Origin: Nocardioides marmoribigeumensis
GTDB lineage: Bacteria > Actinomycetota > Actinomycetes > Propionibacteriales > Nocardioidaceae
Assembly (NCBI RefSeq): GCF_031458325.1
Contig: NZ_JAVDYG010000001.1
Coordinates: forward strand, 3,782,001 to 3,846,000
DNA: 64,000 bases
Direction of reading: 5' to 3'
Shown here: positions 9,187 to 58,990 of the stretch, one piece after another
How the letters are laid out: every line of letters starts with the position of its first letter
Position numbering within the stretch: position 1 is the first letter of the stretch
The notes under the pieces: generated by a model
Database searches by the model: none
Seen by the model: only the letters and a program-made list of their open reading frames with translations
What the model was told of the DNA's origin: nothing
Made by a program: the position numbers and the translations under genes

Positions 9187-9189
9187 GCC

Positions 9190-13668: not shown

Positions 13669-13705
13669 CGGGCCCCGTCTTGACCGCGACTTGTTGGATG
13701 GGGAG

Positions 13706-14517: not shown

Positions 14518-14586
14518 GGGCACCTCTCTCCACAGCCGTCGTACGACGGGGCGCGCGACCCGCGCGCGGGGGCCAGGCTGGCGGGC

Positions 14587-15360
14587 GTGTGGGACGCGCT
14601 GCTCGACCTGGCCGCGGGGTCGGTGTGCGTGGTGTGCACCCGGCCCGGGCGGGCGCTGTGCCGGCGCTGCCACCGGGCCCTCCCGGGCGCGGGGGCGCCG
14701 GCTCGGCCGACGCCCTGCCCGCCAGGGCTGGTGCCGGTGCACGCCACGGGCGACTACGACGGCGCGCTGCGGGCCCTGGTGCTCGCCCACAAGGAGCACG
14801 CCGTGCACGGCCTCGCGGTGCCGCTGGGGGACCTCCTGGCGGTGGCGGTGACGGCGGCGCTGCGGGCCGAGGTCGGGCGCGCCTGGCCCTACCCGCCCTC
14901 CCCGGCGGGGCCCGTCGTGCTCGTGCCGGTGCCGAGCCACCCGCGGGTCGTGCGCGAGCGGGGGCACGACCCCCTGCTGCGGCTGACCCGCCGCGCGGCG
15001 ACCGCCCTGCGGCGCGACGGGGTGCCGGTGTCGGTCGCGAGACCGCTGCTCGTGGTCGGCCGGCCGCGCGACCAGGCGGGCCTGACCGCGCAGGAGCGGG
15101 CGGCCAACCTGGCCGGGCGCTTCGCGGCCAGGGCGGGCCCGGGCCCCGGCGACCCGGGGGCGGTCGTCCTCGTCGACGACGTGCTGACCACCGGCTGGAC
15201 GCTCCGGTCGGCCCAGGCCGCCCTGGAGCAACGGGGGTGGGCCCCGGTGGCCGGCGCGACCGTCGCGGCCACCCGCCGTCACAGGAGACAGGTGGTCCCA
15301 CCAGCCCCGGGAGTCCCGGACTTGGGGGTCCTGCTACCGCGATCACCACCGGGGCACTAG
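14587..15360 (+). CDS. comF: ComF family phosphoribosyltransferase-like protein
   Basis: 257 aa from GTG 14587. N-terminal zinc-binding pairs CVVC and CRRC, then the ComF/GntX core: GDYDGALRALVLAHKEHA; VPVPSHPRVVRERGHDPLLRL; and the PRPP-binding loop VVLVDDVLTTGWT near residue 200. In competent bacteria ComF is a DNA-uptake ATP/PRPP-site protein; in actinobacteria its role is not settled. It stands directly before the RNA-rich region and hpf, the same order as in mycobacteria and Streptomyces. Confidence 0.9.
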   Translation: MWDALLDLAAGSVCVVCTRPGRALCRRCHRALPGAGAPARPTPCPPGLVPVHATGDYDGALRALVLAHKEHAVHGLAVPLGDLLAVAVTAALRAEVGRAWPYPPSPAGPVVLVPVPSHPRVVRERGHDPLLRLTRRAATALRRDGVPVSVARPLLVVGRPRDQAGLTAQERAANLAGRFAARAGPGPGDPGAVVLVDDVLTTGWTLRSAQAALEQRGWAPVAGATVAATRRHRRQVVPPAPGVPDLGVLLPRSPPGH

Positions 15361-15758
15361 CGTCGTGACATGGAGTCCGCCCGGGTCCGTGGTTGCGTCG
15401 GGGGGACAGGCGCGAGCAGTGCCCCGCTCGGGGCCGTGCTCGCCCAGGCCTCCCGGCAAGCCGATGCCAGTCGCAGGCGAAACGGTCCACGTAAGCCCGG
15501 TGCCCCCGTCCGCGGGCGTGCCGGACGATCACGGTGCGGCTTAGAGGTAAGTCCTGCCGGCCGGTCCCTGCCAGATGCAGGGGTCAGCGCCGAGAAGGTG
15601 GGTAGTGGCAGAGAAGCCGCGAGAGCCTCAGCAGGCGGTTGTGGGGTCGAAGACCAGGTCGGCCGGGCGGGCTCCACTCTCAGCGCTGTCACTGCTGCTG
15701 TCACACTCGCTGGCAGGTGGATCGCCCGAACGGGAACTCACGAGGACCGGAGGTAGGC
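15361..15758 (+). ncRNA. Probable raiA-motif structured RNA between comF and hpf
   Basis: This 398-bp gap has no credible ORF, and its position between comFC and raiA/hpf is the location described for the raiA RNA motif of Firmicutes and Actinobacteria. Strong local hairpins are present: GCCCCG-CT-CGGGGC at 15421-15434, and CCCTGC-CAGAT-GCAGGG at 15566-15582. I cannot fold the whole region or match the consensus by eye, so the family call rests mainly on synteny. It could instead be a long structured 5' leader of hpf. The ends are approximate. Confidence 0.5.
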
Positions 15759-16379
15759 ATGGACATCGTCGTCAACGCCCGACACGGGGAGATCACGGAC
15801 AGGTTCCGTGAGCACGTGCAGGACAAGCTGGCCCGCCTCGAGAAGCACGACCAGAAGGTGATCCGGATCGAGGTCGAGGTCGAGAAGGAGCGCAACCCGC
15901 GCCAGCACGACCGCTGCGTCAAGGTCGAGCTCACCGCCTTCACCAAGGGTCCGGTGGTGCGCGCGGAGGCGGCGGCCGACGACAAGATGGCCGCCCTCGA
16001 CCTGGCGCTGGACAAGATGAGCGCGCAGATGCGTCGCGCGGCCGACCGCAAGCGGGTCCACCGCGGGCGGCACGCGCCGGTGTCCGTGGCGCAGGCGACC
16101 GCCGCGCTGGTCAACGGCAGCGTCGGCGCCGAGTCCGAGGAGTCGACCGACGACGCGGCGGCCCACGCGGGCGTGACCGCCGAGGGCCCGATGGTGGTGC
16201 GCGAGAAGACCCACGCCGCGACCCCGATGAACCTCGACCAGGCGCTCTACGAGATGGAGCTGGTCGGCCACGACTTCTTCCTCTTCGTCGAGGAGGGGAG
16301 CCGTCGCCCGTCGGTCGTCTACCGCCGCCGGGGCTACGACTACGGCGTGATCTCCCTGGACCTGGAGAACCCCGCCTGA
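15759..16379 (+). CDS. hpf: Ribosome hibernation promoting factor, long form
   Basis: 206 aa from ATG 15759 with a GGAGG site 5 nt upstream. The N-terminal S30AE domain (about 1-105: MDIVVNARHGEITDRFREHV, EVEVEKERNPRQHDRCVKVELTA) binds the 30S decoding centre. A variable Ala/Ser/Glu linker follows, then the long-HPF C-terminal dimerisation domain (about 150-206: VVREKTHAATPMNLDQALYEMELVGHDFFLF, ending VISLDLENPA). It joins 70S ribosomes into inactive 100S dimers in stationary phase. The upstream region probably carries a structured RNA. Confidence 0.95.
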   Translation: MDIVVNARHGEITDRFREHVQDKLARLEKHDQKVIRIEVEVEKERNPRQHDRCVKVELTAFTKGPVVRAEAAADDKMAALDLALDKMSAQMRRAADRKRVHRGRHAPVSVAQATAALVNGSVGAESEESTDDAAAHAGVTAEGPMVVREKTHAATPMNLDQALYEMELVGHDFFLFVEEGSRRPSVVYRRRGYDYGVISLDLENPA

Positions 16380-16380
16380 G

Positions 16381-16394
16381 CGGGCGACCGCCCG
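16381..16394 (+). terminator. Short GC hairpin after hpf
   Basis: CGGGCG (16381-16386), AC and CGCCCG (16389-16394) immediately follow the hpf stop. It is a compact stem without a T-tract, so a weak terminator candidate. The 133-bp gap to the next gene must also hold that gene's promoter, which I could not define. Confidence 0.35.
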
Positions 16395-16512
16395 GCTGAA
16401 GGGTGACTAGTCGTGATCTCGCCCAATTTGGCTAGTTCGAGACCCTGGTCCCGTGTGGCGGCGACGTAGGTCGTACGTCCGGATTTTGCTGAGCACGTAG
16501 CCCGATCGTGCC

Positions 16513-17223
16513 ATGATCCCTTCTGTGAACCTCCCCGCAAGCTCCGTGGCCAACGGTCAGGTCGCCGACAGCGCCATCCGGGTCCTGGTCGTCGACGACC
16601 AGGAGCTCTTCCGCCGCGGCCTCACCATGCTGCTCAACGTCGAGCCGGACATCGACGTCGTGGGCGAGGCCTCCAGCGGGGCCGAGGCGGTCGGTCTGTG
16701 CCACACCGAGGCCCCCGACGTGGTCCTCATGGACGTGCGGATGCCCAAGCAGAACGGCATCGAGGCCTGCGCCTCGATCAAGGACGCGGCGCCCGGCGCC
16801 CGCATCATCATGCTCACCGTCAGCGACGACGAGGGCGACCTCTACGACGCGGTCAAGAGCGGGGCCTCGGGCTACCTGCTCAAGGACTCCTCGATCGACG
16901 AGGTCTCCCAGGCGATCCGCGTCGTGGCCGACGGCCAGTCCCTGATCAGCCCCTCGATGGCGATCAAGCTGCTCGACGAGTTCAAGCAGATGTCGCGCGG
17001 CGACCGCAACCTCAGCCCCGGCCCCAAGCTCACCGAGCGCGAGCTCGAGGTCCTGCGCCTGGTGGCCCACGGCCTCAACAACCGCGAGATCGCCAAGCAG
17101 CTGTTCATCAGCGAGAACACCGTCAAGAACCACGTGCGCAACATCTTGGAGAAGCTCCAGCTGCACTCCCGCGTCGAGGCCGTGATGTACGCCGTGCGGG
17201 AGAAGCTGCTCGAGATCCCGTGA
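16513..17223 (+). CDS. NarL/FixJ-type response regulator (orphan)
   Basis: 236 aa from ATG 16513 (GTG 16525 is an alternative). Receiver: VLVVDDQELFRRGL, phospho-acceptor Asp in PDVVLMDVRMP (about residue 74), Thr in IIMLTVSDD, Lys in GYLLKDSS. The C-terminal LuxR helix-turn-helix is LTERELEVLRLVAHGLNNREIAKQLFISENTVKNHVRNIL. No kinase gene is adjacent. The same regulator follows hpf in Streptomyces. The partner and regulon are unknown. Confidence 0.93.
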   Translation: MIPSVNLPASSVANGQVADSAIRVLVVDDQELFRRGLTMLLNVEPDIDVVGEASSGAEAVGLCHTEAPDVVLMDVRMPKQNGIEACASIKDAAPGARIIMLTVSDDEGDLYDAVKSGASGYLLKDSSIDEVSQAIRVVADGQSLISPSMAIKLLDEFKQMSRGDRNLSPGPKLTERELEVLRLVAHGLNNREIAKQLFISENTVKNHVRNILEKLQLHSRVEAVMYAVREKLLEIP

Positions 17224-46873: not shown

Positions 46874-47575
46874 ATGAGCCTGCACATCACCTCCTCGGAC
46901 GAGGCGATCCGCGACGCGCTCGACGCGCACCTGCGAGAGGTCGTGCGTCGCGACGGCGTCGACCCGCAGCGCGACCACGCCGCCGTACGCCGCCTCGCCA
47001 CGTCGGTCGTCCGGGCCCACGACGAGCGCAGCCTCACCGGCGCGGTGCTCCCGGTCGTGGACTCCGAGGCCCTGGTCGACGAGCTCGTCGCCAACCTGGC
47101 CGGCTACGGCCCGCTCCAGCGCTACCTCGAGGACCCGTCGGTCGAGGAGATCTGGATCAACGACCCGGCGCGCGTGTTCATCGCTCGGGCGGGTCGCCAC
47201 GAGCTGACGCCGGTCGTCCTCACCCGGGCCCAGGTCGCCGAGCTCGTCGAGCGGATGCTCAAGTCCAGCGGCCGCCGCGTCGACATCAGCCAGCCGTTCG
47301 TCGACGCGATGCTGCCGGGCGGGCACCGCCTTCACGTGGTCCTCGAGGGCATCTCGCGCGGGTTCAGCGCCGTCAACATCCGCAAGTTCGTCGTGCGCGC
47401 GGCGCGGCTCTCCGACCTGGTCGCCCTGGGCAGCCTCACGCAGCCGGCCGCCGACTTCCTCTCGGCCTCCGTGAGCGCCGGTCTCAACATCGTCGTGAGC
47501 GGCGGCACTCGGGCCGGGGGATTACAGCGATATTTGGCCCCGGGCCGCCCCTCTTACGCCCCGGCGTGTGCATAA
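46874..47575 (+). pseudogene. cpaF: CpaF/TadA secretion ATPase, 5' part, split by an integrative element
   Basis: Hexameric ATPase that powers Tad/Flp pilus assembly. The 5' fragment starts at ATG 46874 (MSLHITSSDEAIRDAL, with GGGG 3-8 nt upstream; GTG 46778 is a longer alternative). It covers the N-terminal domain and most of the first RecA-like part (VDELVANLAGYGPLQRYLEDPSVEEIWINDPARVF; GRRVDISQPFVDAMLPGG; LNIVVSGGT). Native sequence ends at 47508 inside Walker A. Element DNA then adds 22 foreign residues to a stop at 47575. Joined to 58969-59584 the gene is 1251 nt and in frame, so it is interrupted, not degenerate. Confidence 0.92.
47489..47533. other. attL of the serine-integrase element
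   Basis: Left junction. Chromosomal cpaF sequence runs up to the shared GCAC (47505-47508). After it comes the element arm: CCGGGG at 47514, then an ATTACAGCGATAT segment at 47521-47533. The arm mirrors the element's right arm (58942-58961) at 13 of 20 positions. Confidence 0.8.
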
Positions 47576-47641
47576 CCTGTCCGCCCATGTCGGTCGTCGC
47601 AGGTATGGTCTCGGCATTTACCTGTACCTAGAGGGGGACCC

Positions 47642-48325
47642 GTGGCGACCTATCCGTACATCTCCGGCCAGGCGGCGCTTGCCGCGGCCTTTGCGCAACT
47701 CCGCAAGGGCGGCTGGTCGAAGGTGGATGCTGGCTACCTGCAGCGGTTCAACATCGCCCCCGCCAACGAGTCGTACGTGATCTCCATCCTGCGGTTTCTG
47801 GGCATCGTCGACGATGAGGGCAACCGGGTCGCGGACAACACGCAGTTCTTCTACGGCAACGACGAGGCCTTCAAGGAGGGCCTCGACGCGACGCTTCGCC
47901 GCGCCTACGCGCAGTTGTTCGACGAGATGGGGGACGGAGCGTTCGAGGCCGAGAAGCAGGACCTGACCCACTGGTTCCGCGCCGCCGACAGGACCTCGGA
48001 CCTCGTGGGGCAGCGCCAGGCGTCGACTTTCCAGACCCTCTCCGCGATCGCGGGGCATGGGGACGTCCCGGTCGCGCGGACGGCGACCGCCAAGAAGGCC
48101 GCCTCGGGCACGAACGGCTCGGCCAAGAAGGCGACCGCCAAGAAGGCCTCGGCCAAGCAGACGGAGAAGCCTGTCGGCGGCGACGGCGACGGCGTCAAGT
48201 TGAAGGCTCAGGGCGTTCAGGACGTCGGGCTGACGGTCCGCATCGAGGTCAACCTCCCGCCCGGGGGCGACGCCGACACCTACGACGCGATCTTCGCGAG
48301 CATCAAGAAGCACCTGATGTCGTGA
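47642..48325 (+). CDS. DUF5343 family protein (element cargo)
   Basis: 227 aa from GTG 47642 with an AGAGGGGG site. The N-terminal DUF5343 domain spans about 1-140: YPYISGQAALAAAFAQLRKGGWSKVDAGYLQRFNI, then SYVISILRFLGIVDDEGNR, a winged-helix-like pattern. An Ala/Lys-rich linker (TAKKAASGTNGSAKKATAKKAS) resembling nucleic-acid-binding tails follows. The C-terminal segment ends DVGLTVRIEVNLPPGGDADTYDAIFASIKKHL. It is coupled to the Ymh-like gene by GTGA. DUF5343 has no settled function; the pairing and location at the element's edge suggest an accessory or defence cassette. Confidence 0.72.
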   Translation: MATYPYISGQAALAAAFAQLRKGGWSKVDAGYLQRFNIAPANESYVISILRFLGIVDDEGNRVADNTQFFYGNDEAFKEGLDATLRRAYAQLFDEMGDGAFEAEKQDLTHWFRAADRTSDLVGQRQASTFQTLSAIAGHGDVPVARTATAKKAASGTNGSAKKATAKKASAKQTEKPVGGDGDGVKLKAQGVQDVGLTVRIEVNLPPGGDADTYDAIFASIKKHLMS

Positions 48326-48855
48326 GCGAACCGCTCGACCGCTTCGAGCGGATCACGCGGTCGGTCGGCGCGGCACCGGCCGCCCTGTCAGTCGAGGCCG
48401 CCGACAGCGCCACCGCCACGGACGCGGCCGTGATCGAGGTGGTCGAAGTCGAGGAGCCGCACCCGTTCGAGTCGCGGAACATCCACCCGGACCTGCCCAA
48501 GAAGGTCCGGTCGCTGTTTGACGACGGCTACTGGGAGGATGCCGTCTTCTCCGCCTTCAAGTTCATCGAGAAGGAGGTCAAGCGGATCTCCAACGTGCGG
48601 AGGAAGGTCGGATTCGACCTCATGATGGACGTCTTCAACGAGAACGCGCCGAAGGTACAACTGAACGCCCTCGCCAACGACTCCGACGTCGACGAGCAGC
48701 GCGGATACCGGCATATGTTCGCGGGTGCGACCGCGGGCATCCGCAACCCGCGCGGCCACGAGGTCGAGGTTGGCGACACCCCGGACGAGGCCCTGGACTA
48801 CCTGGCCCTCGCCTCGCTGCTCCTGCGGAGGCTCGACGCCGCTGGCCTCCGCTAG
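48322..48855 (+). CDS. TIGR02391/Ymh-like protein (element cargo)
   Basis: 177 aa from GTG 48322. After a variable 55-residue N-terminus comes the family core: HPFESRNIHPDLPKKVRSLFDDGYWEDAVFSAFKFIEKEVKRIS, then GYRHMFAGATAGIRNPRGHEVE, ending in DYLALASLLLRRLDAAG. The helical core with a conserved RNP.H motif is what I associate with the Hypoth_Ymh (TIGR02391) family, found sporadically on mobile DNA and near restriction genes. It resembles HEPN-like all-helical RNase folds (a RNxxxH-like stretch), but that is inference. Confidence 0.68.
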   Translation: MSEPLDRFERITRSVGAAPAALSVEAADSATATDAAVIEVVEVEEPHPFESRNIHPDLPKKVRSLFDDGYWEDAVFSAFKFIEKEVKRISNVRRKVGFDLMMDVFNENAPKVQLNALANDSDVDEQRGYRHMFAGATAGIRNPRGHEVEVGDTPDEALDYLALASLLLRRLDAAGLR

Positions 48856-48944
48856 GAGGATGCCCTGGCTGCACAGCATCCGGCGAAGTCGCGTAATGAT
48901 TGACCTGAGGAAGCCGACACCTTGAGTTGAGAGGAACGGCTTCC

Positions 48945-49118
48945 ATGTCAGAAATGCCCACCGTGAGCGCCGCGTGCGCCCGCCTCGCAGCACTCCGGCG
49001 CTGGAGATGCGAGGACGACCCCGGCGTGGTGCAGGCCGAGCGCGACCTGGTCGTCGCCCATGCCGCCGCTCTGACCGCCGAGGCTGCCCGCCTGCTCCGC
49101 GGGGAGGCCCGGCCGTGA
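48945..49118 (+). CDS. Small element protein, unknown
   Basis: 57 aa from ATG 48945 with GAGAGGAA upstream; an in-frame TTG at 48927 would add six residues. Mostly helical and Ala/Arg/Glu-rich (VSAACARLAALRRWRCEDDPGVV...HAAALTAEAARLL). First of a chain of five genes with 4-bp overlaps leading into terL. No family recognised. Confidence 0.55.
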   Translation: MSEMPTVSAACARLAALRRWRCEDDPGVVQAERDLVVAHAAALTAEAARLLRGEARP

Positions 49119-49357
49119 TCGAGCCCTACCGCTACGCCAACGGCGAGGTTCACGGCGGTCCCCCCGAGCCGCCCGACCCCTGGTCGGGCACCGAGACCCC
49201 CAGCCTCGCCGCGGAGTCGTCACCGCGGCGGGGCCGGGGCACCAGCCGCCTCGTCCTGCGAGCCCGCCGCGTGCGCGACGACCCGCAGTGGGCGAGCCGG
49301 TCGCCGGAGAGCAAGCGGCGCCTGCTCGACCTGGACGAGAGGGAGGCGCGGCGGTGA
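49115..49357 (+). CDS. Small element protein, unknown
   Basis: 80 aa from GTG 49115 (4-bp overlap with the previous gene). A Pro/Gly-rich first half is followed by a strongly basic second half (SSPRRGRGTSRLVLRARRVRDDPQWA). It ends LLDLDEREARR. Possibly nucleic-acid binding; no family recognised. Confidence 0.5.
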   Translation: MIEPYRYANGEVHGGPPEPPDPWSGTETPSLAAESSPRRGRGTSRLVLRARRVRDDPQWASRSPESKRRLLDLDEREARR

Positions 49358-50175
49358 GCGCCGTCGCGTGCCAGGTCTGCGGCCTGGCCACCGACCAGCG
49401 CCCGGAACGGCGCCTGGTCCGCACGCCCGCGGGCGTGGCGGTCGGCCAGGGCTACGAGGTCGGCACCTGCGACGACTGCGCCGCGCTCGACCCGGCCCGC
49501 CCGGGGCTCGCCGTCCGCGCCGCGCTCCGCGTTCTGGGCAAGGAGGAGGCCGACGACGTGCTCGCCGCCAAGGCGTTCGAGGAGGCCGGGGTCGACGTCA
49601 CCGAGGTCCTCTACGACCGCGGCGACGACCGCGGCGGCCGGGGGGCGCGAGGCCCGCAGCGCAAGGCGTTCGCCCACGTCGGCGCCGACGGCCTGGCCGC
49701 CCTCCGGCTCGGCTACGCCAAGGTGCTCGACATGCGGGTCCACGCCGCGACCCGCGACCGGGCGGTGCCGCCGACCGCCCCGCCGGAGGGCCACCCGCCC
49801 GCCTGCGTGGCGTGCGGCGTCGCCCGGTCGGCCGGGTGGGCCACAGTGCGGACCAAGGCGCTGACCCGCGGGCCGGACTTCCTCGACGGCTGCGTGTGCT
49901 CCACCTGCGCCGAGGTCCTGCGCGACGTCGGCGCGGTCGGCGCGACCTTCCTGGAGCGGGCGGCCATGCAGGCCAAGGGGATCGACTGGGTCGCTGGCGC
50001 GAGGGTGCCGGGCCTGCAGGCGTGGGTCGCCACCGGCCTCCCGCCGGGCGAGCCGTGGGGGTGGGTCGACCTGGCCCTGCCCGAGCCGGAGATGGACCCC
50101 CTGGCCCTTCTCCGGTCCCAGGTGGCCGACCTCCAGCGCGAGGTCGCGGTGCTGCGCGAGGCGGTGGCCCGGTGA
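49354..50175 (+). CDS. Element protein with paired zinc-binding cysteines
   Basis: 273 aa from GTG 49354, 4-bp overlaps on both sides. Four Cys pairs suggest two zinc sites: CQVCG near the start with CDDC about 30 residues later, and CVACG (near residue 150) with CSTC (near 185). The C-terminal coil is LRSQVADLQREVAVLREAVA. Placement just before terL is where phages encode small terminase or HNH proteins, but neither an HNH motif nor a clear HTH is seen. No family recognised. Confidence 0.55.
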   Translation: MSAVACQVCGLATDQRPERRLVRTPAGVAVGQGYEVGTCDDCAALDPARPGLAVRAALRVLGKEEADDVLAAKAFEEAGVDVTEVLYDRGDDRGGRGARGPQRKAFAHVGADGLAALRLGYAKVLDMRVHAATRDRAVPPTAPPEGHPPACVACGVARSAGWATVRTKALTRGPDFLDGCVCSTCAEVLRDVGAVGATFLERAAMQAKGIDWVAGARVPGLQAWVATGLPPGEPWGWVDLALPEPEMDPLALLRSQVADLQREVAVLREAVAR

Positions 50176-50363
50176 GCGGCTTCTGCGGTGACCGCGCGTG
50201 CGCCAACCGGGTGCAGTTCTTCCTCATGACGCCGGACGACGAGGGCATCGCCGAGCCGTGCGCGGCCTGCCTCGCGGCGCTCGCGGCGACGCTGGAGGTC
50301 GGCGGCCCGGCGGCGTCCCTGCGCGACCTGCACCGCGCGGTCCTGGCGAGGGGCGCGGCGTGA
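50172..50363 (+). CDS. Small Cys-containing element protein
   Basis: 63 aa from GTG 50172, overlapping its neighbours by 4 bp. It contains GFCGDRACANRVQFFL and CAACLAAL, so a single four-cysteine zinc knuckle is likely. Unknown function. Confidence 0.5.
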   Translation: MSGFCGDRACANRVQFFLMTPDDEGIAEPCAACLAALAATLEVGGPAASLRDLHRAVLARGAA

Positions 50364-50560
50364 CCGCGGCGACCGTGGTCACGTTCCGGGCCGAGGAGGC
50401 CGAGGCGCGCCTGGCCCGCTTCGCCGAGTGGGCCGGGGGCGCCGTCGAGGTCGAGGACCTCGGCAACCTCGAAGGCCACCGCCGCTACCGCGTGGACGCC
50501 GAGCGGTGGGCGGCGTACACCCGGGCCACGGCGCCGAAGCGGGCGAGGCCGACGCGGTGA
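50360..50560 (+). CDS. Small element protein, unknown
   Basis: 66 aa from GTG 50360, overlapping both neighbours by 4 bp. An alpha/beta pattern (VVTFRAEEAEARLARFAEWAGG, then YRVDAERWAAYTRATAP) ends in a basic tail (KRARPTR). It directly precedes terL, a position typical of small terminase subunits, but there is no recognisable HTH. Confidence 0.5.
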   Translation: MTAATVVTFRAEEAEARLARFAEWAGGAVEVEDLGNLEGHRRYRVDAERWAAYTRATAPKRARPTR

Positions 50561-52053
50561 GCGAGGCCGCCTACAACGTCGCCCTGACCCTGCGCGTGGT
50601 CGCGGGCACGTCCGAGCCGGCGCCGTGGGGGTCCGTCGCCGACGCCCGGCAGCGGGCCGACATGCGAGCCCTGCTCGCCGGGGACGACTCCCGGCAGCAC
50701 GTCTGGCAGCGCGCCCGCGGCTACATGAAGACCACCGACTCCGGCGTCGCGGCGCTCGCCGCGCTGCTGACCGACGTGCCCGCCAACGGGGTCGTGCAGG
50801 TGTTCGCGGTCGACCTGGAACAGGCCCGCAAGATCATGACCGCGATCCGCACCGCGGCCGCCCACCTGCCGTCCGTGCCCCTGAAGGTCACCGCGAGCCG
50901 GGTGACCCGCACCGACAACGACGCCGCGATCGTGGTCGAGACCTCCGACGCAGCGTCGGCGCTCGGGGCCAGCCCGCACCTGCTGATCCTCGACGAGTTC
51001 GCGAACTGGAAGGACACCGCGTCGTTCCAGGACCTGTGGGACAACGTCTACTCGGGCCTGCCCAAGCAGGGCAACGCGCGCATCCTCATCGTCACGTCGG
51101 CCGGGCCGATCGGGACCTGGCCCCACGGGCGGCTGACCACCTTCCAGGGCTCGAAGCACTGGCGCTACAGCCTCGCGCCCGGCCCGGCCCCGTGGCGCAC
51201 GCCCGAGGACCTGGAGCGGCAGCGGGAGGGCCTGTCGTCGGCGGCGGCGTTCCGCATGTTCCACCTCAACGAGTTCACGACGCCCGAGGACGGCCTGGTC
51301 GGCGAGGAGGACCTGGCCGCCGCGGTCGCGGAGGGCGTCCGCGTTCGGCCGTACGACCCGCGGCACGCCTACGTCGTGACCGCCGACCTCGGCGTCGTGA
51401 AGGACGCCACCGTGGTCACCGTGTGCCACCGCGAGGGTGACCGCGTGGTGCAGGACGTCCTCGCCCGGTGGCTGCCGCGGCACGGCCGCCACGTCCGCCT
51501 GGACGACGTCCGCGACGAGGTCGCGCGGCTGCACGCCGAGTACGGCAGCGCCCCGGTGCGGATCGACCCGAGCCAGGCAAGGCAGATGGTCCAGGGGCTG
51601 CAGGAGACCGGGGTCCTGATCGAGACGGTCACGATCGACGCCAACTACAACCACGCCTGCGCGACGGCCCTGCAGCAGGCGTTCGAGCGGCGCCGGGTCG
51701 ACCTGCTCGACGTGCCCGAACAGACGGCGGAACTGGGCACGGTGGTGGTCAGGACGCGGACGTCGGGCGGCAAGGAGACGGTCGCCCTCGACTCGACCGG
51801 CAACGGCCACGACGACATCGCCGACGTGCTCGGCATGGCCGCCGAGTTCCTCATGTCGCGGCCGTACTTCGGCGTGCCCTCGATCAACAACGCGGCCGCC
51901 CTGCGCGGCACCGAGATCCGCCGCGGCGGCGGCGCCCGGGAGGGCGTGCGGCTCGGCAAGCGGGACCTCGGCACCGTGCCCAACAACACCCGCCGCAAGG
52001 TGCCGGGGGCGCCGGGGGCCTACGAGCGGTTCCGCCGGCGCGTGGGCTACTAG
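50557..52053 (+). CDS. Terminase large subunit-like protein
   Basis: 498 aa from GTG 50557. N-terminal ATPase: a deviant P-loop ARGYMKTTDSGVAALAALL near residue 50, and Walker B LLILDEFANWKD near 145. C-terminal RNase H-like nuclease: VTADLGVVKDATVVTVCHR with the first metal Asp (near residue 272), RIDPSQ, and GNGHDDIADVLGMA with the last Asp pair near 420. Terminases cut and pump DNA into capsids. No portal or capsid gene accompanies it, so it may redirect a helper phage's packaging or process the element's own DNA. Confidence 0.82.
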   Translation: MSEAAYNVALTLRVVAGTSEPAPWGSVADARQRADMRALLAGDDSRQHVWQRARGYMKTTDSGVAALAALLTDVPANGVVQVFAVDLEQARKIMTAIRTAAAHLPSVPLKVTASRVTRTDNDAAIVVETSDAASALGASPHLLILDEFANWKDTASFQDLWDNVYSGLPKQGNARILIVTSAGPIGTWPHGRLTTFQGSKHWRYSLAPGPAPWRTPEDLERQREGLSSAAAFRMFHLNEFTTPEDGLVGEEDLAAAVAEGVRVRPYDPRHAYVVTADLGVVKDATVVTVCHREGDRVVQDVLARWLPRHGRHVRLDDVRDEVARLHAEYGSAPVRIDPSQARQMVQGLQETGVLIETVTIDANYNHACATALQQAFERRRVDLLDVPEQTAELGTVVVRTRTSGGKETVALDSTGNGHDDIADVLGMAAEFLMSRPYFGVPSINNAAALRGTEIRRGGGAREGVRLGKRDLGTVPNNTRRKVPGAPGAYERFRRRVGY

Positions 52054-52260
52054 GGCGGTCCGTCGAGGGTCCGGGCCTACCGGCGCGGCACCCGCGTCAC
52101 CGTCGCCGGCGCCTTCTCTGGACCGCCGAGGGCCGCCGGGTGCCCAGGTGCGCGGGCACCCCTGGCCGGGCGAGAGATGGGCACCGTGCAGGGCCTGGCC
52201 AAGTCCGAGGGGGCGGGCGCGCGGGATGATGGGAGCGGAGTTCGCCCGTCTCCGTGCGCT

Positions 52261-52294
52261 GAGCCCCGGCCGCTTGCTCTGACGGCCGGGGCTC
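52261..52294 (+). terminator. Strong hairpin terminator after terL
   Basis: GAGCCCCGGCCG (52261-52272), a 10-nt loop and CGGCCGGGGCTC (52283-52294) form a perfect 12-bp stem. The 389-bp gap 52054-52442 otherwise holds only a possible -10 (TAGGAT, 52325-52330) for the replication genes; no convincing -35 pairs with it. Confidence 0.75.
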
Positions 52295-52442
52295 GGCCGT
52301 CTCCGCACTTGGCCGAACCCAAGCTAGGATGGAGCCTGCGGGATGACGGGCAGTCACCCACCGGCGCCAGTACGGGCGTACCGCCGGTCGGGGCCTCGAC
52401 CGCGAGAACGCCCTCCGGGACGGCCCAAGCATCGCGGCAGCC

Positions 52443-52688
52443 GTGGACGTGCAAGCCGCACGCACGGATGGGCAAACTCCCGTGATCCCCACGAGGACAA
52501 CGACACTGGCCGCGTACGCGCGCGCCGTGAAGCACAACGAGCCGCCCGAGGTCGTCGCCGACGCCCTCGCGCTCGACACCGCGGCCCGGCTGCAGGAGCA
52601 GATCCTGGCCGCCTTCGACCGCTCGCCGATCGACCCCGACGACGCCGACGAACTGGCCGACCTGCTCCGGTCCGGGGGTGCGTCATGA
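52443..52688 (+). CDS. Small element protein upstream of the primase
   Basis: 81 aa from GTG 52443 (GTG 52482 is an alternative). After a variable start it is helical and acidic (LAAYARAVKHNEPPEVVADALALDTAARLQEQILAAFDRSPIDPDDADELADLLRSG). It overlaps the primase-polymerase gene by 4 bp (ATGA), so it is co-translated with it and may be a replication accessory. No family recognised. Confidence 0.55.
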   Translation: MDVQAARTDGQTPVIPTRTTTLAAYARAVKHNEPPEVVADALALDTAARLQEQILAAFDRSPIDPDDADELADLLRSGGAS

Positions 52689-55195
52689 CGCTGTTCCCCG
52701 ACCCGGCCGGGCCGTACGAGGCCGCCGCCGAGGCGTACCGCGACGCTGGCATGGCGCCGATCTCCCTTCCCTGCAAGGCGAAGTCGCCGCCGGTCGCCGG
52801 CCACACCGGCAGCAAGCACCGCGGCGTGTACGCGGAGACCGACGCCGACCTCCGCTTCCACGCCCAGATGCGCCGAAAGGGCAACGTCGGGGTCCGGCTG
52901 CCCGAGGACGTGGTCGGCATCGACGTCGACGTCCGCCACGCGGGCGACACGACGGTCGCCATGCTGGCGGCCGCCCTCGGGCCGCTGCCGCCGACGCTGC
53001 ACTCAACGTCGCGCGACGACGGGTCGCGGATCGCGTTCTACCGCGTGCCCACCGGCCTGCGGTGGCGCGACGTGGGCGAGGGCGTAGAGACGGTGTGGTG
53101 GGGCTCGCGGTACGCCGTGGCGTGGCCGAGCGTCCACCCCGACACCGGCGCGGTCTACCACTGGCACACGGCCGACGACGAGCGGCTCGACGGGGTCCCC
53201 AGCGAGGGCTGGGCGCTCGCCGCCGCCCTCCCCGCGGCGTGGGTCGACGCGCTGACCTCCGACGTCGAGGAGAGCGACGGCCCGGTCGACCTGGCGGTCC
53301 TCCGACCGGACGTCGCGCGAGCGCGGGTGCGGGGCACGCTGGACTGGCTCCGTGAGGCGAAGGACGGCGAGCGCAACAAGCGGATCTACGACGCGGGCGT
53401 GCTGCTCGGCGGGTTCTGGGCACGGCTGCCCGACGACGTCACCGAGGAGGACGACCTCACCCACGAGGCGCTGCAGGAGGCGGCACGCAAGGCGTTCGCG
53501 GACCTCGGCGTCGCCCCCGACGAGCCGAAGGCGAACGACACGCTGCAGCGCGGGTGGGAGGCGGGGCTGCGGGCACCGGCTGCCGACAACGACTGGGACG
53601 GCGACGTCGGGAGCCCGGCCGACGACTTCGCCCCGGAGCCGGGCGAGCGGCCCCGCAAGCGCATGTCGGTGGACGTAGCCAACGACAGCGACGCGCTGCA
53701 GTGGTGCAAGCGGGCCGTCGGCACCGGCGACCTGGCCGGGATGTTCCTCCGCGGCGACGAACTGGTCTACACGGCCAGGGTCGGGGAGGCCGGGTACGTG
53801 CCGCCCGCCGGCAAGAAGGAGCAGGAGGACGGGACGGTCCGGTACGACGAGGACGGCCCCGCCCAGGTCCGGCGCCTGTCCGCGCGCACGCTCGCGGCGT
53901 ACGTCGACCACCACACCCGCGTCTACAAGTCCACGCAGAAGGCCGGGCCGGTGCCCGCGATCTTCCCCGAGGTCATCGCGGGCCGGGCGCTCTCCGCCCC
54001 GGAGTTGCTCGGCGGCGCGCGGCGGCTCAACGGCGTGACCACCGTGCCGCTGGTGCTCCACGACGGGTCGGTGCTCTCCGAGCCCGGCTACCACCGCGGC
54101 AGCGGGCTGCTCTACCTGCCGACGCGGGAGACGCCGGCGGTGCCGGGCCGGCTGACGCGGGCCGACGCGGAGGCCGCGCTGGCCACCCTGCTCGACGTCG
54201 TCGCGGACTTCCCCTTCGTGAGCGAGCACGACCGGGCCAACTGGCTCGCCGCGCTCCTCACGCCGGTCATGAAGGTGCTCGTGCCGCCGCCCTACCCGCT
54301 GGTCGCGATCGGCGCCCCGTCGGCGGGCTCGGGCAAGTCGCTGCTCGCGTGGGTCCTGCGCGAGGTCGTGGGCGGGGTCTTCCGGTCCGAGATGGCCCGC
54401 GACGGGCAGGAACTCCGCAAGCAGATCACGACCATCCTCGACAAGACGGTGGGGGCGTTCGCGCAGTTCGACAACGTGCGCGGCACCCTGCGGTCGTCCG
54501 CGCTGGAGGGCCTCCTCACGTCCGACGTCTGGTCCGACCGGCTGCTCGGCGAGAACACGGAGGTCACCGCCCCGAACGACCGGGTGTGGGTGCTCACCGG
54601 CAACAACCTGTCCCTCGGCGGCGACCTGCGGCGCCGGACGGTGTGGTCGTGGATCGACGCCAAGATGGAGCGCCCGGAGGAGCGGACGGCGTTCCGGCAC
54701 ACCAACCTCAAGGCCCACGTCCGCGAGCACCGGGGCGACCTGCTCGCCGCGATGGTCACGGTGGTCGCGGCCTGGGTCCAGGCCGGTCGGCCCAGCGCCG
54801 GCGGCGGGGGGCGGTCCGACGACTTCGCCGAGTGGCAGCAGGCGACCCGCGGCGTGCTCGCGTTCGGCGGCTTCACCGGGGTCGTCAACCACGCCGACAC
54901 GGTGCGGCGGTCCAACCTCTCCGACGAGGACGAGGCGGGGACCCTGTTCGAGGCGCTGTTCCGGCGCTGGGGGTCCCGGCCGTGGACCCCCCGCGAGACC
55001 AGCGACGCCGTCGAGATCGAGGACGGGATCGTCGAGGACGACCTCCCGGGCAGGCTCGCCGAGAAGGTCGGGCGGCCGGGGTTCAGCAAGTCGCTCGGGT
55101 GGTGGCTGTCGGACCACGAGGGCCAGGTCCACCGCGGCGTGACGCTGCACCGCTCCGGCACGAAGAAGTGGCGGCTCGACCACGACCTGCTCTGA
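52685..55195 (+). CDS. Primase-polymerase with C-terminal helicase-like ATPase
   Basis: 836 aa from ATG 52685. The N-terminal Prim-Pol domain (about 1-190) has a bifunctional DNA primase/polymerase look: GMAPISLPCKAKSPPVAGHTG, then VGVRLPEDVVGIDVDVRH with the metal-binding Asp pair (about residues 79-81), and LHSTSRDDGSRIAFYRVP. A middle region of about 250 residues follows. The C-terminal ATPase has Walker A AIGAPSAGSGKSLLAWVL near residue 545, LTGNNLSLGGDLRRRT (sensor-like Asn and Arg residues) near 640, and a winged C-terminus. It should prime and unwind the element's DNA for autonomous replication. Confidence 0.85.
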   Translation: MTLFPDPAGPYEAAAEAYRDAGMAPISLPCKAKSPPVAGHTGSKHRGVYAETDADLRFHAQMRRKGNVGVRLPEDVVGIDVDVRHAGDTTVAMLAAALGPLPPTLHSTSRDDGSRIAFYRVPTGLRWRDVGEGVETVWWGSRYAVAWPSVHPDTGAVYHWHTADDERLDGVPSEGWALAAALPAAWVDALTSDVEESDGPVDLAVLRPDVARARVRGTLDWLREAKDGERNKRIYDAGVLLGGFWARLPDDVTEEDDLTHEALQEAARKAFADLGVAPDEPKANDTLQRGWEAGLRAPAADNDWDGDVGSPADDFAPEPGERPRKRMSVDVANDSDALQWCKRAVGTGDLAGMFLRGDELVYTARVGEAGYVPPAGKKEQEDGTVRYDEDGPAQVRRLSARTLAAYVDHHTRVYKSTQKAGPVPAIFPEVIAGRALSAPELLGGARRLNGVTTVPLVLHDGSVLSEPGYHRGSGLLYLPTRETPAVPGRLTRADAEAALATLLDVVADFPFVSEHDRANWLAALLTPVMKVLVPPPYPLVAIGAPSAGSGKSLLAWVLREVVGGVFRSEMARDGQELRKQITTILDKTVGAFAQFDNVRGTLRSSALEGLLTSDVWSDRLLGENTEVTAPNDRVWVLTGNNLSLGGDLRRRTVWSWIDAKMERPEERTAFRHTNLKAHVREHRGDLLAAMVTVVAAWVQAGRPSAGGGGRSDDFAEWQQATRGVLAFGGFTGVVNHADTVRRSNLSDEDEAGTLFEALFRRWGSRPWTPRETSDAVEIEDGIVEDDLPGRLAEKVGRPGFSKSLGWWLSDHEGQVHRGVTLHRSGTKKWRLDHDLL

Positions 55196-55212
55196 GGCGG
55201 GCCGTCAGGGGT

Positions 55213-55239
55213 GCCCCGGCCGGGCCTGTCGGCCGGGGC
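55213..55239 (+). terminator. Hairpin terminator after the primase-polymerase gene
   Basis: GCCCCGGCC (55213-55221), a 9-nt loop and GGCCGGGGC (55231-55239) form a perfect 9-bp stem, 17 bp after the stop. The stem sequence resembles that of the terminator at 52261. Confidence 0.65.
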
Positions 55240-55257
55240 GCCCCGGGGGCCGGCGGG

Positions 55258-55515
55258 AAACCGCAAACCGCCCGCTCCGGGGGCGCCGGGGGTTGGGCGG
55301 TTTTGTGGGCGGTTTCGGTTTCCGGGCCTACCTGGGTTGGGGTCGATCTTGCTCCCTGCAGAAGCAGGGAGAACAGAGAAGTGGCTTTGGGAGTGCGCCG
55401 GGGGCAGTGCCCCCGACCCCGACGGGGCGTGAAACAGAAACCGCCGGAGAAACCGCCCGGCGGCCCCGCACGGTGCTGCACCCCCGGCGCGGCGGTTTCT
55501 CGGCCCCGGCGGTTT
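55258..55515. repeat. Array of eight AAACCGC repeats in alternating pairs, candidate replication origin
   Basis: Direct copies of AAACCGC lie at 55258, 55265, 55438 and 55450. Inverted copies (GCGGTTT) lie at 55297, 55309, 55492 and 55509. The order is two forward, two reverse, two forward, two reverse. The second set forms a long interrupted palindrome (about 55436-55457 with 55491-55516). Between the sets are two perfect hairpins: CTCCCTGC-AGAA-GCAGGGAG (55352-55371) and CGGGGGC-AGT-GCCCCCG (55399-55415). The gap of 452 bp (55196-55647) has no gene and follows a primase/helicase, so an origin or RNA-structured control region is likely. Confidence 0.7.
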
Positions 55516-55591
55516 CCCACCGACCCCGGCGGGCCGTCTGGGGTCAACCCGTGAGCCGTCAGCGGACCGTCCGGGGACTGGGCATATTTGG

Positions 55592-55607
55592 GGTTGACGC
55601 TTCAACC
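55592..55607. promoter_or_regulatory. Palindrome before the resolvase gene
   Basis: GGTTGA (55592-55597), a 4-nt centre and TCAACC (55602-55607) form a perfect dyad 40 bp before the resolvase start. It includes a TTGACG that could be a -35. It may be an operator or resolvase site. Confidence 0.4.
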
Positions 55608-55647
55608 ATCCCGGCCCGGACGGGCCGACAACGACAGGGGACCACCC

Positions 55648-56226
55648 ATGCCAGCCATCGTCGGCTACCGCCGCGTGAGCACCGCAGACCAGCGCCTCGA
55701 CCGGCAGATCCTGGGCGGCTGCGACCGGATGTACGAGGACACGGCCAGCGGCAAGGACCGCGACCGGCCGGGGCTCGCCGCCTGCCTGGCCTACGTCCGC
55801 GAGGGGGACACCCTGCGCTGCCACAGCGCCGACCGCCTCGCCCGGAGCCTGGCCGACCTGATCGCCACCGTGGACGACCTGACCGCCCGCGGCGTGCGCG
55901 TCGAGTTCATCAAGGAGGGCCTGACCTTCGAGCGCGACTCCGCGGACCCCTACGCCCGCTGCCTGTTCCAGGTCATGGGCGCGTTCGCCGAGTTGGAGCG
56001 CAACATGATCCGCGCCCGGCAGGCCGAGGGGATCGCCCTCGCCCGGCAGCGCGGCGCGTACGTCGGCCGGATGCCCGCGCTGTCCCCGGAGGAGGTCAGG
56101 ACGGCCCGGCAGCGGCACGCCGACGGCGTCACGCTGGCCCGGCTCGTGCGGGACTACGGCGTCGCCAAGAGCACGATGCAGGCGGCGCTCGCGGGCACCG
56201 GCGTGTACGCCGCGGTGGCGTCGTGA
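55648..56226 (+). CDS. Small serine recombinase (resolvase/invertase family)
   Basis: 192 aa from ATG 55648. Catalytic domain: VGYRRVSTADQRLDRQ with the nucleophile Ser near residue 11, HSADRLARSLADL with catalytic Arg residues, and MGAFAELERNMIRARQAEGIALARQRG including the E-helix. The C-terminal helix-turn-helix is VTLARLVRDYGVAKSTMQAAL. This length is typical of resolvases and invertases, not integrases. It could resolve element multimers or invert a segment; no target pair was identified. It starts a forward chain with two tiny genes. Confidence 0.93.
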   Translation: MPAIVGYRRVSTADQRLDRQILGGCDRMYEDTASGKDRDRPGLAACLAYVREGDTLRCHSADRLARSLADLIATVDDLTARGVRVEFIKEGLTFERDSADPYARCLFQVMGAFAELERNMIRARQAEGIALARQRGAYVGRMPALSPEEVRTARQRHADGVTLARLVRDYGVAKSTMQAALAGTGVYAAVAS

Positions 56227-56456
56227 CCGCCCTCGACGTGTCCGACCCCGTCGCCCTGGAGGCCGCCCTGGAGGCCCTGCCCGAGGGCACCTGGGTCGAG
56301 GTCGACGCCGGCGTCGAGGTCCTCCGCGTCGTGCGCGTGCCCGGCGGGTGGCACCTGCCCGGCGACCTCGCCGTCGCGTCCGCGGACGTCGTGGACGGCG
56401 AGCCGGGTAGCGTCGTCGTCCTGACCGAGGAGGGCGCCGGTGTGCAGGCAGTGTGA
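56223..56456 (+). CDS. Small element protein, unknown
   Basis: 77 aa from GTG 56223, overlapping the resolvase by 4 bp. It is acidic and Val-rich with a beta-type pattern (TWVEVDAGVEVLRVVRVPGGWHLPGDLAVASADVV). No family recognised. Confidence 0.5.
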   Translation: MTALDVSDPVALEAALEALPEGTWVEVDAGVEVLRVVRVPGGWHLPGDLAVASADVVDGEPGSVVVLTEEGAGVQAV

Positions 56457-56613
56457 GAGCGGCGCGGAGGCCGCGGAGTCGTACGACGTCCTGGCCGAGG
56501 ACGACCTGGAGGGCCTCACCCCGGAGCAGCGCGAGCGCGCCGCCGCGACGTGGGCCGAGAGCCCTACCGAGGCCACGCGCCGCGCGACGCAGGCGCTGCG
56601 CGACGACCGCTAG
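56440..56613 (+). CDS. Tiny element protein with CxxC, overlapping its neighbours
   Basis: 57 aa from GTG 56440, with a strong GAGGAGG site at 56428-56434. It begins VCRQCESGAEAAESYDVLAEDDLEGL and ends TQALRDDR. It overlaps the previous gene by 17 bp and the convergent DUF4145 gene by 4 bp. The good ribosome-binding site and acidic helical composition like its neighbours support it, but it is short. Confidence 0.45.
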   Translation: MCRQCESGAEAAESYDVLAEDDLEGLTPEQRERAAATWAESPTEATRRATQALRDDR

Positions 56614-57260
56614 GGCGCCGGAGGCTTCGCCTTCTTAGCAACGCGGGCCGCCTTGCGCTTCTCCAGCCGGGCCGGGGACTGGTACACCTCGTCCAGGACC
56701 TCGGCCATGAGTTCGACGACCTCCTCGGCCTCCTCCTTCGTGACCGGTTCGACGAAGTCCCCGTGGGCCATGTCGTTGCCGAAGTGCCGGATCTCGTGCG
56801 CCTGCTCTTGCGTGTGCTTCCGGATGTGGTCGCCGTCGCGGAGCGCGTCGATCCGCTTCTCCAGGTTGCGCCCCTCGGCCTTCTTGTCCTTGGCGGTCGC
56901 CTCGATGACCGCGCGAGCGAGGGCGCCTGCGGCCCGGTAGGCCCCGACGGCGAGGCACAGAGTCGCTTCGCTGGCGGCCTCGCCGATGTGGGTCGGCACA
57001 TCCTCGAACTCGATGACCTCGAGGTGACGCGGGAACCATCTGGGGGATGACCACTGGTGGTTGTCCGCGGTGTCCGACGGGTACATGCCCGCGCTGTAGA
57101 AGGTGGTCCGTTCGGTCGCCATGTTGAGCCGCTTGCAGTTCGGGCACTTGTACACGGCGTCTGCGAAGACTCCACCACCGATCGCCGGTGACGCGTGGAG
57201 GTGGGAGACCGGCTCCATGTACGCCAGGCGGCCGCAGTGCCCGCAGTTCGTGCTTGCCAT
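56610..57260 (-). CDS. DUF4145 family protein (element cargo)
   Basis: 216 aa from ATG 57260 (GTG 57269 would add three residues). The N-terminal zinc ribbon CGHCG with CPNC is followed by FEDVPTHIGEAASEATLCLAVGAYRAAGALARAVIEATAKDKKAEG and the family signature HEIRHFGNDMAHGDF. A coil and Lys/Ala-rich tail end it. DUF4145 proteins are common on mobile DNA and near restriction or defence genes; the mechanism is not known. The R-H-F-G-N-D-M-A-H stretch is HEPN-like. Same strand as, and 51 bp after, the integrase gene. Confidence 0.85.
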   Translation of the reverse strand: MASTNCGHCGRLAYMEPVSHLHASPAIGGGVFADAVYKCPNCKRLNMATERTTFYSAGMYPSDTADNHQWSSPRWFPRHLEVIEFEDVPTHIGEAASEATLCLAVGAYRAAGALARAVIEATAKDKKAEGRNLEKRIDALRDGDHIRKHTQEQAHEIRHFGNDMAHGDFVEPVTKEEAEEVVELMAEVLDEVYQSPARLEKRKAARVAKKAKPPAP

Positions 57261-57311
57261 GTCAGGCACCCTATGTGGGGCCGCCGACAGCGCGAGAGCG
57301 GTTCCGGCCCG

Positions 57312-58868
57312 TCACGCTGGTTCGGCCACCCAGGACTCGTCCGGCTTCCAGTCGAACAGTAGGCGCGCCCGCACCTGTTCCCGCGTGCGGCGCCCGGGCC
57401 TGCCCTTGAGCACGGTGACCCGGGAGAGCACGTCGTCGAGCACGCGGCGCTGCGCCGCCTCGTCGCCTTCGGCTGCCTCCCACGCCTCGCGGTAGGTCTG
57501 GCCGGTCGCGACCCACTCCCACCGGAGCACTGGACGCCTGGCGAGCGCCGCCTCCCGCTGCCGACGCAGGGCCTTGATTTGGGTCGCGAGCGAGTCGTAC
57601 TCGGCGTCGTCGGCGTCGAGTTGCTGGGCCTGCAGCGCGCGGATGTCGAGGGCCAGGTCGGCGGCGTCCTCGGCGCCGCCCGCGTCGGCCGTCTCGACCC
57701 GGTGCATGCGCGCGGTGTCGCCCCACCCCCGCAGGAACTCCTCGACCACGACGTCCTCGAAGTTGCTGATGGACATGCGGCACTTCGGGCAGTTGTAGCC
57801 CGGCCTGCCGTTGATGAAGTTCCGCCACATGCGCTGGCCGCCGTCGAGGCCCTCGCACGCGCAGACCACGAGGCCGCTGAGCAGCCCGCTGGTCTGCTTG
57901 CGCGCCGCCCGCGGCCGGTTCTGCGGCTTGTCTGCGGCGTCGAGCCCGGCGACCATCGCGGTCCAGTCGCCGCGCGACATGACGGCCAGGTGCTCGTGAA
58001 TCACCACGCGCCCGACGGCGTCGGTCATGACGCCCTCGCCCCGGCGCTTGCTGCCGACGTTGCCGGGGTTGGACGGGACCGCCCCGTACAGGAACGGGTG
58101 CCGGAGGATGCGCTCGACGGAGGACCACGACTCCCACGTCGTCGGCAGCCCCTCGGTCTCGACCGGCTCCCTGCCGTCCGGCAGGTCGGCGTTGTGTCGG
58201 AGCGCGCGGGCCAGGCGGGGCGGGGTGGCCCCGGCCTCGTTGAGCCACATGCGGACGCTGTGGATCGAGTCGCCCCGGCGCACGCGCTCGACCATGCCCT
58301 TCACCCAGCCGATCGTCTCGGCGTCCTGCACGTACACGTAGCCGATGCCGTCCGCGGCCCGCACGCGGCGGTAGCCGTAGCAGACCGTGCCGCCCGGCGC
58401 CCGCCCGTCGGCCAGGACCTTCTGGCGCGAGTCGGCCACGCGCGCCGAGATGTCGTCGGCGGTCATCTCGGCGACGGCCGCGAGCACGGAGGCGACGATC
58501 TTGCCGACGGGGGAGTCGAGCGAGAAGCCCTCGTTGACGCTCGCGAGCGACCGGCCCTGGTCCTGGAGCGCGCGGACCGTCGCCCAGAACGCGTTGAAGT
58601 TCCGCGACAGCCGGTCGATCCTGTAGACGACCACGCAGTCGAAGTCGGCTTCCGCGAGGGCGCGCCACCCGGGTCGCTCCGCGGGGTCGACCTTCGACCC
58701 GCTGGTGTCCGGGTCGGACCACACGCCGACCACGCTCATGCCCTGGGACTCGGCCCACTTGCGGCACCGGTCCTCCTGCACGGCGAGGGACACCGTGTCC
58801 TTGTCGCCCTTCCGCGTCACGCTCTGCCGCAGGTACAGCGCCGCCCGGCGCTGGCTACTCTCGGTCAT
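57312..58868 (-). CDS. int: Large serine recombinase (site-specific integrase)
   Basis: 518 aa from ATG 58868 with AGGAG upstream. Catalytic domain: RAALYLRQSVTRKGDKDTVSLAVQEDRCRKWAE with nucleophile Ser near residue 15, then VVVYRIDRLSRN. Recombinase domain follows: PGGTVCYGYRRV and VERILRHPFLYGAVPSN. A zinc-ribbon domain carries CAC and CPKC (about 330-360). A coiled-coil stretch (LDIRALQAQQLDADDAEYDSLATQIKALRRQREAAL) is next, and the C-terminal region ends WVAEPA. It lies 100 bp inside the right junction and points inward, so it is the enzyme expected to recombine attL and attR. Confidence 0.95.
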   Translation of the reverse strand: MTESSQRRAALYLRQSVTRKGDKDTVSLAVQEDRCRKWAESQGMSVVGVWSDPDTSGSKVDPAERPGWRALAEADFDCVVVYRIDRLSRNFNAFWATVRALQDQGRSLASVNEGFSLDSPVGKIVASVLAAVAEMTADDISARVADSRQKVLADGRAPGGTVCYGYRRVRAADGIGYVYVQDAETIGWVKGMVERVRRGDSIHSVRMWLNEAGATPPRLARALRHNADLPDGREPVETEGLPTTWESWSSVERILRHPFLYGAVPSNPGNVGSKRRGEGVMTDAVGRVVIHEHLAVMSRGDWTAMVAGLDAADKPQNRPRAARKQTSGLLSGLVVCACEGLDGGQRMWRNFINGRPGYNCPKCRMSISNFEDVVVEEFLRGWGDTARMHRVETADAGGAEDAADLALDIRALQAQQLDADDAEYDSLATQIKALRRQREAALARRPVLRWEWVATGQTYREAWEAAEGDEAAQRRVLDDVLSRVTVLKGRPGRRTREQVRARLLFDWKPDESWVAEPA

Positions 58869-58941
58869 GTCGGCTCCTCGTGTGCCGTCCAGACCCCCGG
58901 TGGTGCCAGCCACGCGGGGGTCGCCTGTCTCGCCCCCATTA

Positions 58942-58990
58942 TTACCGCTTTCCGACCCCGGGGCGCACCCAGGCGGGCAAGACCACCATG
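58942..58990. other. attR of the serine-integrase element
   Basis: Right junction. The element arm at 58942-58961 (ending GACCCCGG) is followed by the shared GCAC (58965-58968) and then native cpaF (CCAGGCGGGCAAGACC). Crossover at the AC of GCAC restores the glycine-rich loop of cpaF exactly. Confidence 0.8.

Follow-up and report, generated by a model that had tools for sequence, protein, structure and literature searches.

The window analysed here is a stretch of 64,000 bp from Nocardioides marmoribigeumensis. It contains an integrated, satellite-like element of ~11.5 kb (47503-58970; the ends are approximate, with an att core of about GCAC(T/C)C(A/G)GGC). Its insertion divides a T2SSE/CpaF (tadA-type) ATPase gene within the Walker A motif, between GGT and AGKTT, and this gene is uninterrupted at the insertion point in three other genomes of the genus. 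Within the element, the gene for TerL, the terminase large subunit (50551-52053, + strand; Pfam TerL_ATPase, 1.4e-7; PHROG terminase large subunit, 3.8e-28), is followed by a primase-helicase gene (52685-55195, +), a repeat array (55258-55515), a gene for a small serine resolvase/invertase (55648-56226, +; Pfam Resolvase, 8.2e-36) and, on the opposite strand, a large serine integrase gene (57312-58913, -; Pfam Resolvase and Recombinase; PHROG integrase, 2.3e-70). A preliminary description of this DNA had placed the array next to a primase/helicase gene and read it as a putative replication origin; the Prim-Pol/helicase gene does lie directly upstream.

The primase-helicase, a protein of 836 aa with the Walker A sequence GSGKS, is our initiator candidate, characterized by means of Pfam, PHROG, AlphaFold and PDB fold matches; its start was placed by the homolog in G182, the genome with the nearest related element. 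The N-terminus is a Prim-Pol domain (Pfam PF09250, E 2.8e-16), and the protein matches PHROG DNA polymerase/primase families. No Pfam or NCBIfam model names the family of the helicase half (53558-55192), which is found in >100 mostly actinobacterial elements. The AlphaFold model of the helicase (67-sequence alignment, mean pLDDT 89) consists of an AAA+ core and a C-terminal domain. A PDB sequence search with the helicase profile gave no convincing homolog, but the fold search did return matches of the D5/SF3 type, namely the SaPI5 primase-helicase (7ola), PriRep1 with dsDNA (7pds), NrS-1, poxvirus E5/D5 and AsfvPrimPol, at E ~1e-7 but with low TM-scores (~0.3-0.4). In the C-terminal domain (model residues 454-545, roughly 740-836 of the full protein, encoded at 54920-55192, +; pLDDT mostly about 90) the structural elements follow one another as in a winged helix (H454-471, H478-484, H498-501, H509-518, E528-532, E538-542), and we propose this domain as the putative reader of the repeats.

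Anatomy and rarity of the array

The 7-mer AAACCGC/GCGGTTT is present in eight exact copies within 258 bp (55258-55515) in the order ++ -- ++ --, with + strand starts at 55258, 55265, 55438 and 55450 and - strand starts at 55297, 55309, 55492 and 55509. The alternating forward and reverse pairs first noticed in the letters are borne out. The same holds for the lack of a gene in this intergenic region, where we found no convincing gene but only overlapping high-GC ORFs. The 7-mer search delimits the two outer sets as set 1 (AAACCGC AAACCGC, 55258-55271, +) and set 4 (GCGGTTT ctcggccccg GCGGTTT, 55492-55515, -), which are also able to pair with the inner sets 2 and 3.

This clustering is confined to the array. 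In the 64-kb window the 7-mer occurs nine times against 2.4 expected, a count reached in 0 of 100 shuffles. The preliminary description had proposed counting it elsewhere in the genome (one contig of 4,440,796 bp); by pattern search, the 7-mer turns out not to be dense genome-wide, with 61 copies in total and the 53 outside the array scattered at ~1.2 per 100 kb, so that its density in the array is >2,000-fold that of the rest. Same-strand pairs of the 7-mer at most 20 bp apart exist only four times in the whole genome, and all four are the pairs of the array. A composition-corrected iteron score gives 11.0 for the array against a median of ~3.4 for control windows from related loci. Together with an arm test (see below), this score replaced a 'most frequent 7-mer' statistic, which was dropped because G-runs in the shuffles inflated it.

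The core of the array is an interrupted palindrome. Its left arm (GGGCGGTTTTGTGGGCGGTTTCGGTTTC, 55295-55322, -) holds set 2 and its right arm (GAAACAGAAACCGCCGGAGAAACCGCCC, 55431-55458, +) holds set 3, each arm being made of two exact iterons and one degenerate third copy. With a gap of 108 bp, this is the strongest such palindrome found by the palindrome/arm search, and its score of 15.5 is reached by 0.45% of 440 control windows. A long interrupted palindrome had been described before, formed within the second set of repeats; the palindrome is real and the second-set pairing is also present, but the best form joins sets 2 and 3. Between these sets lie the two perfect hairpins previously pointed out, CTCCCTGC-agaa-GCAGGGAG (55352-55371) and CGGGGGC-AGT-GCCCCCG (55399-55415). 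The 108-bp centre itself (55323-55430, beginning with CGGGCCTACC) is, by its GC content and the arm comparison, a candidate opening/priming region, and its 69% GC makes it, on an absolute scale, a weak unwinding element.

One further hairpin stands between the stop codon of the primase-helicase gene and the array (55213-55239). It has a 10-bp GC-rich stem, follows the stop codon immediately (i.e. in terminator position) and lacks a T run. Five relatives from viral contigs (L118, L124, L125, L129 and L162) likewise have terminator-like hairpins, some of them T-tailed, in the first ~60 bp past the helicase stop codon, ahead of the iteron arms, and one has been described for pRN1 too. A terminator-like hairpin would keep the origin free of transcription.

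The array might instead work in the transcript, as a structured RNA (an option already raised in the preliminary description), a terminator or an antisense copy-control RNA. The array strand does fold far better than its shuffles (DNA parameters, z -7.5), an excess that is due to the inverted repeats. Rfam offers no family near its gathering score (the best hits reach 19.8 and 14.6 bits, with gathering scores of 100 and 42), and promoter/terminator scans found no T-rich intrinsic terminator on the + strand. Moreover, the arms contain tandem direct copies whose sequence tracks a DNA-binding domain (see below), neither of which is expected for an RNA. We consider a function in the transcript extremely improbable.

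Homologous loci and the joint change of iterons and C-terminal domain

Helicase homologs were gathered from GTDB contigs, viral contigs, plasmids and genomes of the family, with the helicase alignment as query giving 59 viral and 77 genome loci. The iteron score was then computed for 120 non-redundant loci, in windows of 500 bp placed between -4500 and +4500 relative to the stop codon of the helicase gene. Away from the gene end it is flat (median 3.2-3.7), and the share of loci above 6 is mostly 0-7% (10% at +500, about 3% overall). At 0 and +250 from the stop codon, the median is 8.1 and 9.8 and the share above 6 is 70% and 76%, respectively. The 3' end of the helicase gene is the only place in these 120 loci where the score peaks.

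The repeat itself varies from element to element (AAACCGC, CGGGTTT, CCCCGCA, CTCCGCA, ATCTCCG, GTGGGAA, AGGGTTT and others), and the copies within one element change together. What is constant is the plan: tandem copies in the same orientation, often 7-12 bp apart, then a centre, then inverted copies. Conservation of the exact 7-mer was rejected as a test because relatives use other 7-mers. The preliminary description had asked for conservation of the repeats in related elements. The origin reading withstands this check, as it does that of genome-wide density: the architecture is kept, though the 7-mer is not.

The arm test is blind to the sequence of the repeat; its sole requirement is a pair of inverted arms separated by 40-160 bp. 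By this measure, the loci have a median of 17.5 against 9.0 for the 440 control windows, and 81 of the 120 exceed the 99th percentile of the controls (the window scores 15.5 and G182 13.5). By the exact 7-mer or the arm test, scores are low in roughly one quarter to one third of the homologous loci; some of these are truncated, some have the array inside the 3' end of the gene and some are apparently arrayless. In 27 of 28 close relatives, GC content is lower in the centre than in the gene (mean 54% vs 68%), and the only motif found in the centre is a slight preference for CACGCG/CTACGCG close to the left arm.

Comparison with G182 shows which part of the initiator changes along with the iterons. 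The flanking genes of the two elements are 75-83% identical (TerL 75%, the small gene before the primase 83%, the resolvase 82%). The primase-helicases share 72-81% in the Prim-Pol part and only 33-42% in the C-terminal domain, the fastest-diverging part of the protein. The arms in G182 are GCGGATTGTTTTGTT and AACAAAACAACCCGC, 103 bp apart and with a concentric stem; they have diverged and lack exact tandem 7-mers. (A global DNA alignment of the two regions was not used as evidence, being too gap-tolerant in GC-rich DNA.) The same link is observed across ~100 loci. In a Mantel test controlling for core identity, loci more alike in the C-terminal domain also have more similar iterons (partial rank r 0.29, 0 of 200 permutations), whereas identity in the AAA+ core has no such predictive value once the C-terminus is held fixed (r ~-0.03, p 0.77). 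The result is the same if only DNA after the stop codon is used or if close pairs are removed. As a correlation between sequences, this co-divergence is what one would expect if the C-terminal domain reads the iterons.

These comparisons also bear on the small serine resolvase, for which the array could be a res or operator site. The array lies immediately upstream of the resolvase gene (55648-56226), and in both G182 and G329 (a second genome with a related element) the next gene is a serine recombinase as well. Across the family, however, a serine recombinase follows within 1.5 kb downstream for only 5 of the 103 good arrays, and the resolvases of the window and G182 are still 82% identical although the iterons have changed. 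The arm spacing of ~108 bp is also unlike that of resolvase subsites, which measure 28-34 bp, and a separate small inverted repeat, GTTGACGCTTCAAC, is found directly before the resolvase gene. We therefore rate a resolvase site as very unlikely. The GTTGACGCTTCAAC repeat is an imperfect palindrome at 55590-55607, just ahead of the resolvase start, and is perfect in G182 (GTTGAACGTTCAAC); it is possibly a resolvase operator or res subsite in its own right, apart from the iterons.

Known origins and a proposed mode of action

A described system with the same layout is the Streptomyces plasmid pWTY27. The 300 bp directly 3' of its repA gene carry five GTGGGAAC and five inverted TTCCCAC iterons, and this region is needed in cis for replication and restores replication when added back; it includes an inverted repeat of ~105 bp that RepA footprints, and the replicon behaves as bidirectional (PMC3583192). 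In a tblastn search, the helicase half of the window's protein matches pWTY27 RepA as a homolog over 94% of its length (31% identity, E 7e-54). Our scan, blind to the published work, puts the iterons of this locus (L164) +51 to +276 past the repA stop codon, within the published region. The two systems share a Prim-Pol with a homologous helicase, a long interrupted palindrome and, in the noncoding DNA right after the helicase gene, short iterons of either orientation. They differ in that Prim-Pol (RepB) and helicase (RepA) are separate genes in pWTY27 but fused in the window, in the iterons (GTGGGAAC/TTCCCAC against AAACCGC) and in their carriers, a conjugative plasmid on the one hand and a TerL-carrying integrated element on the other.

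Taken with an array that is unique in its genome and an architecture kept among relatives, the iteron origin of pWTY27 in the same position supports the origin reading of the preliminary description. From sequence and analogy, we hold with high confidence that the array serves the integrated element as its replication origin and that its iterons are recognised by the C-terminal domain of the primase-helicase encoded upstream.

A protein-bound array could also serve regulation and not the start of replication, i.e. as a transcriptional operator or partition-like site for the initiator or another protein of the element. Iteron initiators often autoregulate, and the array could regulate the downstream resolvase gene. 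Autoregulatory iterons usually lie 5' of their gene, though, and the array is 3' of the initiator. Furthermore, the homologous region of pWTY27 is the one required in cis for replication and able to restore it (PMC3583192). A purely regulatory site has, in our judgement, a very small chance of being the right explanation.

Other systems resemble the proposed origin in part. The AICE RepPP type (SCO4618-like, as in SLP1) has a Prim-Pol followed by a helicase, as in the window, a likeness by gene arrangement (PMC3218068); we found no description of a Prim-Pol origin in that paper. Three relatives in our set (L008, L017 and L025) have arrays 3' of the gene in an excisionase/integrase-like context. 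The element in the window, unlike AICEs, has no FtsK/Tra gene: none of its ten scanned ORFs contains an FtsK domain of the FtsK/SpoIIIE-type Tra, and it is for this reason that we do not class it as an AICE.

SaPI origins are staphylococcal and AT-rich, and neither SaPI nor SCC elements have a detectable sequence relation to the window. SaPI Rep origins occupy the stretch immediately past the helicase gene, and SCCmec Cch2 uses its C-terminal domain to bind a putative origin in this position (PMC7581432). SaPI5 PriRep1 and SCCmec Cch2 are like the window in origin position, short iterons, a D5-like helicase and a C-terminal DNA-binding domain (DNA binding being predicted in the window), and with SCC the window further shares a serine recombinase as the following gene (PMC7581432). 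The archaeal pRN1 offers a fused Prim-Pol-helicase with a winged helix (orf904), as here, and its origin, 3' of the gene, is a stem-loop conserved in shape but variable in sequence (PMC4234260). Its interrupted palindrome in this position matches the window, but it is a single stem-loop, with no iterons reported as essential.

On these grounds, the origin might work as follows. The serine integrase would excise the element as a circle. The Prim-Pol/helicase would then bind the AAACCGC iterons via its C-terminal winged helix, and two opposed oligomers could assemble on the inverted arms (55295-55322 and 55431-55458). By analogy with pWTY27 and SaPI/SCC, the D5/SF3-like AAA+ rings would open the less G+C-rich 108-bp centre, perhaps helped by the two hairpins within it. 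The fused Prim-Pol would lay primers, and host replisomes would leave both ways, again as suggested by pWTY27 and SaPI/SCC. The outer sets 1 and 4 might be extra loading sites or sites of copy-number control or autoregulation.

The analysis provides a testable candidate origin for a large actinobacterial family of phage-like contigs, integrative elements, plasmids and satellite-like islands whose initiator lacks a helicase domain model. It also gives a simple rule for finding such origins, which is to inspect the ~350 bp after the helicase stop codon. With ~100 natural initiator-iteron pairs at hand, a winged-helix recognition code could be read from them, which would be useful for building compatible actinobacterial vectors and for understanding the (in)compatibility of related elements.

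The element and its relatives at the tadA site

The element resembles a phage satellite because TerL is present and no capsid gene was found in the element ORFs scanned, and it may be one. As in SaPIs/PICIs, packaging/capsid genes are present but fall short of a full virion set (in the window just TerL, in G329 a major head protein), and an iteron array lies downstream of the primase/helicase gene. The tyrosine integrase of PICIs has no counterpart, the integrase of the window being of the large serine type. Among the families matched by the ORFs scanned, which included part of the small ones, there is no Stl/AlpA-type regulator. No helper phage emerged, TerL had no relative in phage or viral-contig collections at the sensitivity used, and the primase and TerL as single-sequence queries had no match among viral contigs. 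Relatives of TerL were seen in no more than a few genomes, all of the same family (75% identity for G182, 27-42% for five others). The element itself could be a remnant no longer able to excise.

Elements of 11-11.5 kb occupy the same Walker A codons in the window (47503-58970), in G182 (L019, ~5720-16810) and in G329, which belongs to the same family as the window's genome (L027, ~2010-13530). Each breaks its tadA/CpaF-type gene, and their serine integrases are only 37-41% identical. A wider proposal, whose chances we judge to be evenly balanced, has two parts. First, the array would belong to a wide and for the most part undescribed class of origins in actinobacteria, served by a Prim-Pol/D5-like helicase without a Pfam/NCBIfam helicase model and built on the same 3' plan; in this class iterons and winged helix change together, so that close relatives would differ in origin specificity. 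Second, the elements of the window, G182 and G329 would form a new family of ~11.5-kb, defence-carrying phage satellites of Nocardioidaceae that insert into the Walker A motif of tadA. Potentially new are how broad this class is, the way in which iterons and C-terminal domain change jointly, and the satellite-like family, targeted to tadA, in which the array is found.

The tadA-site elements seem to carry alternative packaging/capsid genes together with defence cargo. In the window, defence-like genes are found at 47642-48855 and 56610-57269 and include DUF5343 (PADLOC candidate PDC-M34A), Hypoth_ymh (PD-Lambda-3_B-like) and DUF4145/HEPN (a weak PD-T7-4-like match). No TerL like that of the window was found in the G329 element. 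Its - strand (2104-3824 and 6248-7330) encodes a phage major head protein (PHROG 3990, E 1.4e-106) along with a pair of TIR-domain proteins, of which one has a TIR of the CAP12/Pycsar-effector type.
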